A program made the translations under genes and the position numbers. From the NCBI GenBank assembly GCA_016927065.1, contig JAFGNJ010000005.1, positions 239,564 through 303,563 of the forward strand: 64,000 bases of DNA. Direction: 5' to 3'. Below the pieces are notes generated by a model. The model saw nothing but the letters and a program-made list of their open reading frames with translations. It ran no database searches and was not told the DNA's origin. The DNA is from Deltaproteobacteria bacterium (GTDB lineage Bacteria; Desulfobacterota; B13-G15; RBG-16-54-18). Shown in pieces: positions 22,198 through 24,143 of the stretch. Position 1 is the stretch's first letter. The number at the start of each line of letters is the position of its first letter.

Positions 22198-22716
22198 TCA
22201 CGGCTTCAAAAGATCCCACGTTGCTGGAGTTACAACCCCATTAGGCTGTAACCCATTGGCCCGCTTGAACTCAATGATAGCAATCCACGTCTCTTTATTC
22301 CAGACGCCGTCAACCGGCCCGTTATAATACCCCTTCACCTTTAATGCCCGTTGAATATCTATAAGAGGGACATCCACCTCTATCATGGAACATGCGCCAG
22401 CTGGAGGACACGTGGGGTTACAGTACGGTGCGCACGAGGGTGAACAGGTGGGACTGCAATTGGGTGCGCAGGGGTAACACGTGGGGCTACAGGAAGGGGT
22501 GCAAGAGGGCGTACACGTGGGGGTGCAGGTTGGGCTACACGCAGGGGCGCACAGATGACGAGGGGAACATCGCCACGCCACGTCAGTGCCGTTAGCGGCC
22601 TTGATCTCAGGGGGATCAAAGATACCCTTGATGCCAAACAACAATCCCATGTAGAGACCGGCGAGGTACTTCAACGAGTTCTTGATAAAACCCCTTCTGC
22701 TCTCTTTGCGAGCCAT
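22198..22716 (-). CDS. Tat-signal, Cys-rich (CxPx repeat) protein with a C-terminal peptidoglycan-binding domain; candidate modified substrate of the adjacent radical SAM enzyme
   Basis: MARKESRRGFIKNSLKYLAGLYMGLLFG (Tat motif SRRGFIK), CAPACSPTCTPTCTPSCTPSCSPTCYPCAPNCSPTCSPSCAPYCNPTC tract, then PG_binding_1-like IDIQRALKVKGYYNGPVDGVWNKETWIAIIEFKRANGLQPNGVVTPATWDLL. SD taaggaggtgaca ATG at 22716. Confidence 0.9.
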   Translation of the reverse strand: MARKESRRGFIKNSLKYLAGLYMGLLFGIKGIFDPPEIKAANGTDVAWRCSPRHLCAPACSPTCTPTCTPSCTPSCSPTCYPCAPNCSPTCSPSCAPYCNPTCPPAGACSMIEVDVPLIDIQRALKVKGYYNGPVDGVWNKETWIAIIEFKRANGLQPNGVVTPATWDLLKP

Positions 22717-22784
22717 TGTCACCTCCTTAGTTCTGTCTCTACACTATAAGTTTAGCGAATGATTACAAAAAAACAAGCACAATA

Positions 22785-24080
22785 TCACTTTTTTTGCCAC
22801 CGTCCACGATAGGGGTCATAGAGGCAACGGGGGGACTTGTCATAGAGGTTTCCCCTTTGGGCATAGGCCAGTGGGCGGCAATCATGGCAGGCGTATCGAT
22901 ACTCGCAATCCTGACATACCTCCACCTGGTCCTTGGTTAACCCCCAAAGCTCTTGCAACCTTTTTTTTTGCAGTGAATCCTTCAAGTTCTCCTCACAGAC
23001 ATTACCGACTATGAGGTCACGTGCGAATATACAGGGCATCACCTCTCCCGTTGCGGTGACGGCCACTTTCCCGGCCCAACAGCTATTGTATCGTTTATTG
23101 TAAAAAAAGGAGTGCCTGTCGGTCCAGAAATTGGCCGCCGTCATGTGGCCGGAAAACTCGCGGGGAAGATCGTGGGGTTGTATCTCCTGAGAACACCCTC
23201 TCCCCGTGGGTCTGACAGGGTCTGGCAACTTATACTCTACCCCCATTTCGTGAAGGAATTCCACCGTCGCGGAGAGATCATGCTGGTTTCGTTTCATGGC
23301 AATGACGGCCACCCGCACCGGAACATTGTTATCCTTAATAAGGGTAATGGCTTTTACTGTCTTGGCATGACTTCCCTGAACCCCTGTAATGCTATCGTGG
23401 GTTTTCGGATCGGCGGAATAGAGGGTAGTGGCGATATGCACGCCGTTATCCCTCAAAAAAGGGATACGTTTTTGGGTGAAGAGGGTAAGGTTAGAGAAGA
23501 TCTCAACAAAAGTGTATCCTGTGCTCCGGGCAAAGCCGACCAATGGAAAAAGGTCTTTTTGCAGGAGTGGTTCACCACCGATAAACTGGACCTGGGAGCA
23601 ACCGAGATCTCGTGCCTGTCGCAATATGAGCTTCCACCCTTCAGCATTCACCCTGTCAGGTCCGGATGAGGAGAGGCAGTCACCGTAGCAATGGATGCAC
23701 CTGAGATTGCAGGTGGAGGTCACCTCCAACCAGATAAACTCCAGGGTGGCCTCAGGAATAGCTTCCTGAGATACGTTTCGGGGCGGAAAAGGGGTATCGG
23801 AGCTCTCCACAATTCCCATATCGATCAATTGATCCACGAACGTCCGGCGCCGTTCCTTGAATATGTTATGCTGAATGGCGGCCACTACGTTGTGGGCAGA
23901 GCGGTTAAGAGAGTAAACCGTCCCTTCCGAAAGGTCATACAAGGCGCTTCTGGCCACACCCTGTATTAAGACGCATCCTTCCTTTAAACGAATATAGTGG
24001 AGACGTTTGCTCTTATCTCCTGAGGTCAGCCTTTGTTTGCCGTATGATTGTCTTGTGGACAATGATAAATCTCTTTCCAC
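22785..24080 (-). CDS. Radical SAM/SPASM domain protein, peptide-maturase-like
   Basis: STCNLRCIHCYGDC (CxxxCxxC), GGEPLLQKDL, C-terminal SPASM-type Cys set (SCWAGKVAVTATGEVMPC...CQDCEYRYACHDC...C), N-terminal domain (CVLIQGVARSALYDLSEGTVYSLN) resembling SPASM peptide maturases. Confidence 0.9.
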   Translation of the reverse strand: MERDLSLSTRQSYGKQRLTSGDKSKRLHYIRLKEGCVLIQGVARSALYDLSEGTVYSLNRSAHNVVAAIQHNIFKERRRTFVDQLIDMGIVESSDTPFPPRNVSQEAIPEATLEFIWLEVTSTCNLRCIHCYGDCLSSSGPDRVNAEGWKLILRQARDLGCSQVQFIGGEPLLQKDLFPLVGFARSTGYTFVEIFSNLTLFTQKRIPFLRDNGVHIATTLYSADPKTHDSITGVQGSHAKTVKAITLIKDNNVPVRVAVIAMKRNQHDLSATVEFLHEMGVEYKLPDPVRPTGRGCSQEIQPHDLPREFSGHMTAANFWTDRHSFFYNKRYNSCWAGKVAVTATGEVMPCIFARDLIVGNVCEENLKDSLQKKRLQELWGLTKDQVEVCQDCEYRYACHDCRPLAYAQRGNLYDKSPRCLYDPYRGRWQKK

Positions 24081-24143
24081 GACGTATTATACAGCCCCTC
24101 CATCTCCCCGGCAACTGCCGTACGAGGGTCTGTAGAAAGAGTG

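Follow-up and report, generated by a model that had tools for sequence, protein, structure and literature searches.

A radical SAM/SPASM enzyme encoded beside a Tat-exported Cys-X-Pro repeat protein: a candidate peptide maturase pair in Desulfobacterota

The window analysed here, 64,000 nucleotides of contig JAFGNJ010000005.1 from a Deltaproteobacteria bacterium (assembly GCA_016927065.1, positions 239,564 to 303,563), carries a two-gene cassette in which the product of one gene, a radical SAM/SPASM enzyme, quite probably modifies the Cys-X-Pro units of the product of the other; this second protein would then be exported by the Tat pathway and bind peptidoglycan. Judged from sequence, the enzyme most likely represents a new family of radical SAM peptide maturases that acts on Cys-X-Pro units before Tat export. 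If this is correct, the cassette provides a defined pair, one enzyme and one repeat substrate, for a reaction outside every curated family searched, and its product would be a wall-anchored modified repeat protein, not a secreted antibiotic. Cys-X-Pro would also serve as a simple sequence rule for finding further members.

The maturase and its partner protein

The maturase gene (22785..24080, minus strand) is an intact open reading frame of 431 aa as called from a GTG start, with no internal stop codons. The annotated GTG is probably the wrong start, since a sigma-70-like promoter, TTGCCG-17-TATAAT (24086..24114, minus strand; recognised by its match to the consensus), ends at 24086, and since the orthologue in Deltaproteobacteria bacterium RBG_13_52_11 begins at the equivalent of residue 7; the true start is probably the TTG at this residue (24062). 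The original prediction of a maturase with an additional N-terminal domain, which quoted positions 32-70 of the 431-aa protein, is borne out by a CNLRCIHC motif, seven SPASM cysteines and an N-terminal domain of approximately 110 aa. The radical SAM core (23253..23729, minus strand; about residues 118-276) contains the CX3CX2C motif as C124/C128/C131 within CNLRCIHC (residues 124-131), and the enzyme matches the Pfam Radical_SAM model PF04055 at 61.9 bits (cut-off 29.5). In the SPASM domain (22785..23150, minus strand; residues 311-431) the cysteines are C334, C350 (as G345-X4-C350), C389-X2-C392-X5-C398-X2-C401 and C419, and the scores against the SPASM models PF13186 (33.7 bits) and TIGR04085 (35.2 bits) exceed the cut-offs of 21.5 and 27, respectively. 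No equivalog cut-off was reached among the NCBIfam families listed. A whole-enzyme AlphaFold model (pLDDT 43.9, three sequences) was set aside as poor.

The partner protein (22198..22716, minus strand) comprises 172 aa from an ATG, which is directly preceded by the ribosome-binding site AAGGAGGTG (22717..22732, minus strand); it had been called from a GTG at 22722, giving 174 aa. Fourteen of its 15 cysteines lie in Cys-X-Pro, and the repeat block, presumed to be the modified core, spans residues 52-111 (22390..22569, minus strand). The protein has the properties of a Tat-exported protein, with the signal SRRGFIK and with TatC found in all four carrier genomes, and it ends in a PG_binding_1 domain (51.6 bits, Pfam cut-off 23). 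The maturase and partner genes share a strand and are separated by 62 nt, both in the window and in the genomes G005 (RBG_13_52_11), G006 and G002. From this gene order and from the recurrence of the motif, we infer that the partner is the substrate of the maturase. Peptide modification had been predicted from the enzyme, with the adjacent Tat protein mentioned only in passing, and it is this protein that supports the prediction best.

Likeness to grasp-with-spasm proteins and the N-terminal domain

The closest model to the SPASM domain is the grasp-with-spasm protein GwsS, TIGR04193, which scores 96.4 bits against residues 284-431, compared with 36.6 bits for the next-best NCBIfam model. Over the whole maturase the score is 103.4 bits, confined to the C-terminal part and below the equivalog cut-off of 175. 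Direct alignment of the SPASM domain with GwsS from Elizabethkingia gave 39% identity over 107 aa. The N-terminal domain (23741..24005, minus strand; about residues 26-113) is predicted to form four strands followed by two helices, and residues 1-114 match no family in NCBIfam or Pfam. In a profile comparison with two plasmid-borne Elizabethkingia GwsS proteins, the maturase N-terminus was co-linear with their start over 35 residues, with an invariant G and R in common (P 0.0037, at an HH probability of only 9%). The resemblance to the start of GwsS is thus real but weak, and extends over the first 35 or so residues. The previously proposed likeness to grasp-with-spasm proteins therefore holds as a likeness, strongest in the C-terminal SPASM domain; in the N-terminus, where it had been placed, it is marginal.

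RRE or PqqD-like domains have been assigned by homology to PqqD at an HHpred probability of at least 80% (PMC7470986). With hhalign, the probability for the maturase N-terminus against PqqD was 1.1%, from shallow profiles. When a predicted model of the domain (pLDDT 66.5) was used in a Foldseek search, the first three rows were the lasso-peptide RRE TbiB1 with its leader peptide (E 0.15) and the CteB maturase appeared lower in the same list, no E-value being significant; VIA-align gave Z scores of up to 4.2, and no family stood out. The predicted strands and helices are compatible with an RRE, and modelling suggests an RRE-like, leader-binding fold. PqqD was not found in genomes G005 and G006, two of the four carriers, so the system appears to be independent of a detectable stand-alone chaperone, and for the same reason the precursor is probably held with the help of the N-terminal domain.

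Conservation in the GTDB family and phylum

The enzyme-partner cassette is present in four of the eight genomes of the GTDB family, one of them RBG_13_52_11, and the two genes are adjacent in all four; pdxA lies near the cassette in each carrier. The other four genomes, some of them incomplete, are without the cassette, which counts against the preferred explanation. Across the partner proteins the cysteines, prolines and domain order are kept, with 15 to 20 cysteines and 14-19 Cys-X-Pro units per protein. In the family cores 93% of cysteines have a proline at +2, and the middle residue and the Cys-Cys spacing vary. A DNA scan of 390 genomes of the phylum for four successive cysteines, the first three each in Cys-X-Pro-X, gave matches in 33 genomes. 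When the open reading frames were read at the loci returned for these genomes, convincing Cys-X-Pro proteins occurred only in the four that carry the enzyme. Matches outside the GTDB family were mostly low-complexity or non-coding repeats.

Several other features were seen in these genomes. In RBG_13_52_11, mtaB and the maturase gene are separated by a transposase-like gene whose sequence is of the REP-associated type (L014:3976-4926). A second cassette in G000, the genome from which the window comes (contig C25, about 226400-230100; L002, L003 and L036) encodes several radical SAM proteins with a PqqD-like and a signal-peptidase-like protein, and resembles GeoRSP-type systems at scores below the curated cut-offs. 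Elsewhere in the phylum, at about 48500 on contig C1 of genome G394 (L026), a Cys-rich, Gly-rich CXXX-type repeat protein is encoded beside a different radical SAM enzyme.

Cys-X-Pro in distant relatives

Beyond the phylum, the motif recurs beside or inside related enzymes, each of which was found by similarity of the enzyme and not by the motif; this recurrence also favours the predicted peptide modification. An Ardenticatenia enzyme has about 40% identity to the window enzyme, and a 66-aa open reading frame with a strong AAGGAGG ribosome-binding site starts three nucleotides downstream of it, all seven cysteines of which are in Cys-X-Pro. No other member was found in a search of 300 Chloroflexota genomes. 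On a plasmid of Photobacterium toruni, an enzyme with a GwsS-like start is preceded by a 33-aa open reading frame ending in SCAPGDCNPVN, and the two genes are separated by a stem-loop and a T-run; a search of viral contigs with this enzyme gave no match.

A further 20 short radical SAM enzymes (L016, L017, L039-L051, L082-L085 and L090) are without the second SPASM half and have instead a C-terminal tail of about 60 aa rich in Cys-X-Pro, for example CDPKCGPACGPACNPSCWP. They derive from Streptomyces, Embleya, Amycolatopsis, Paraburkholderia, Rhizobium and viral contigs, and include sequences from actinobacterial and proteobacterial plasmids; those scanned with the NCBIfam equivalogs stayed below every cut-off. 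All 20 have 2-8 Cys-X-Pro units in the last 90 aa, compared with 0-1 in 18 other enzymes, and the tails together hold 91 units compared with 16 in shuffled sequences. Proline is at +2 of 90% of the cysteines in these cis tails, with varying middle residue and spacing, and overall of 90-100% of cysteines, again at variable Cys-Cys spacing. Instead of being substrate, the tails may serve as ligands of iron-sulfur clusters. If they are substrates, fusion to the enzyme would provide a self-contained enzyme-substrate construct for testing. A tail-type enzyme gene is also present next to the integrase of the Mycobacterium prophage prophi68-1 (L094:2071-2862); beyond its stop codon, the reading frame continues into a stretch rich in Cys-X-Pro.

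In a tree built from 34 radical SAM cores, for which every reference was found by similarity to the window enzyme, the latter groups with the Ardenticatenia, G345 and Photobacterium enzymes and those with Cys-X-Pro tails (support 83/80); the window family and the tail enzymes join at moderate support (86/77). Three rows have long branches, that of Photobacterium among them, and the trans enzymes fall into more than one group. The distant relative in G345 (L013:390-3029) carries an additional PqqD domain at its C-terminus. Its locus also encodes an HprK-like kinase and its partner, an 84-aa Tat protein with CXXX repeats but without Cys-X-Pro, and the motif is therefore not universal in the group. 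The presence of Cys-X-Pro in a neighbouring peptide or in the tail of related enzymes from other phyla suggests an undescribed peptide modification. It is possible, as a tentative extension, that Cys-X-Pro marks a so far undescribed class of peptide modification by radical SAM enzymes, spread over several phyla in three layouts: many units on a cell-wall protein exported by Tat, separately encoded short precursors, and an enzyme-fused tail modified in cis.

Proposed mechanism and alternative explanations

In the cytoplasm, the enzyme would bind the precursor, perhaps by means of its N-terminal domain, for which a leader-binding role is presumed, and would perform radical chemistry on the Cys-X-Pro units. 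The finished protein would leave by the Tat pathway, in a presumed order of modification, Tat export and cell wall, and its C-terminal domain would attach it to peptidoglycan. HxsA and TvgA/TvgB (PMC9062424) offer analogies for this mechanism. Cysteine and the proline at +2 are the sole constants of the units, suggesting that both take part; on this basis a cross-link or oxidation between or at the sulfur of each cysteine and the unit to which it belongs, recurring from unit to unit, may be guessed at as the product, doubtful as the guess is.

The enzyme might instead belong to the heme or heme d1 group (AhbC/AhbD/NirJ) or the TIGR04053 group of SPASM proteins and act on a tetrapyrrole, its neighbour being unrelated. 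The best whole-protein NCBIfam matches do point in this direction (AhbD 124 bits, TIGR04053 121 bits and NirJ2 110 bits), but they amount to about a quarter to a third of the cut-offs of 395-500, and against the AhbC, AhbD and NirJ equivalogs the maturase scores 73-124 bits, below cut-offs of 500-650. The CX2CX5CX2C arrangement, correctly described in the original prediction and taken there to indicate a peptide substrate, also occurs in an AhbD-like protein of L010 (CGICEYKKVCLGC) and is not diagnostic. Placement with heme d1/NirJ, the outcome named there as incompatible with peptide modification, was not supported: the AhbD-like and TIGR04053 rows are united in a separate clade (100/99) that excludes the window enzyme, the SPASM domain prefers the GwsS model, and the Cys-X-Pro neighbour is kept in every carrier, all of which makes a tetrapyrrole substrate very improbable. 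Membership of the described CXXX-repeat peptide system (maturase TIGR04115, targets TIGR04117) is only slightly less so. Many partner cysteines are four residues apart and the TIGR04117 model aligns weakly with the partner, as it does at 23.8 bits with the Tat CXXX protein of L013; the partner score of 12.9 bits, however, is far under the cut-off of 50, TIGR04115 (cut-off 350) gave no match at the maturase locus, the best in the genome being another protein at 38.2 bits, and the Cys spacing varies in the partner while Cys-X-Pro is constant.

Proteins that acquire a cofactor and fold in the cytoplasm usually leave it by the Tat pathway, and the partner could be a wall-attached metal-binding or redox protein, with the enzyme inserting or preparing its metal centre, or altering a few residues, without acting on every repeat. 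High cysteine density, Tat export and the peptidoglycan-binding anchor would fit such a protein. Proline at +2 is nevertheless as constant as cysteine and the Cys spacing is variable, which is unusual for fixed metal sites, and the 66-aa and 33-aa Cys-X-Pro peptides beside related enzymes look like RiPP precursors. We consider this explanation unlikely, and modification of the Cys-X-Pro units by a peptide maturase remains the preferred reading.

Comparison with known systems

No curated family fits the enzyme-partner pair among the families searched, and a literature search on the Cys-X-Pro motif and the named systems, with a scope largely outside subscription journals, returned no matching paper. 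GwsS resembles the maturase in its C-terminal SPASM domain and in the short co-linear N-terminal stretch, but it is without CX3CX2C, whereas the window maturase has an intact radical SAM core; the likeness therefore lies in the two termini, outside the catalytic core. GwsS also works with an ATP-grasp ligase, the model of which, TIGR04192, had no match in G000, G002, G005, G006 or G395. Upstream of gwsG/gwsS on an Elizabethkingia plasmid there is an 81-aa open reading frame without Cys-X-Pro (L030:972-1217), which is likely to be a grasp-with-spasm precursor.

Ranthipeptide and sactipeptide maturases (CteB, SkfB and AlbA) combine a radical SAM/SPASM architecture with Cys-rich peptide substrates, and the window enzyme has the same architecture and a Cys-rich partner. 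Those classes are defined by a thioether from cysteine to the alpha, beta or gamma carbon of a residue; the NCBIfam AlbA and SkfB models score about 60 bits against the maturase, with cut-offs of 850 and 300. The CXXX-repeat system is similar in that a Cys-rich repeat target adjoins a radical SAM enzyme, but the present repeats are Cys-X-Pro units at varying intervals, and the enzyme is not matched by TIGR04115. Most TIGR04117 matches in other genomes of the phylum were ferredoxin-like proteins or unrelated proteins rich in cysteine.

The His-Xaa-Ser system (HxsA with HxsB/HxsC) likewise pairs radical SAM enzymes with a repeat protein that has a C-terminal peptidoglycan-binding domain of the same kind. 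The present cassette differs in having Cys-X-Pro rather than His-X-Ser repeats, one enzyme and a Tat signal, and its partner matches the HxsA model TIGR03979 at 37.6 bits, in the peptidoglycan-binding part only and below the cut-off of 121.65. In the TvgA/TvgB system, which yields poly-cyclopropylglycine, each repeat can be modified (PMC9062424). The motif is different there, with TVGG repeats and modification of valine, but as in the cassette described here one radical SAM enzyme is paired with many short repeats of one precursor.
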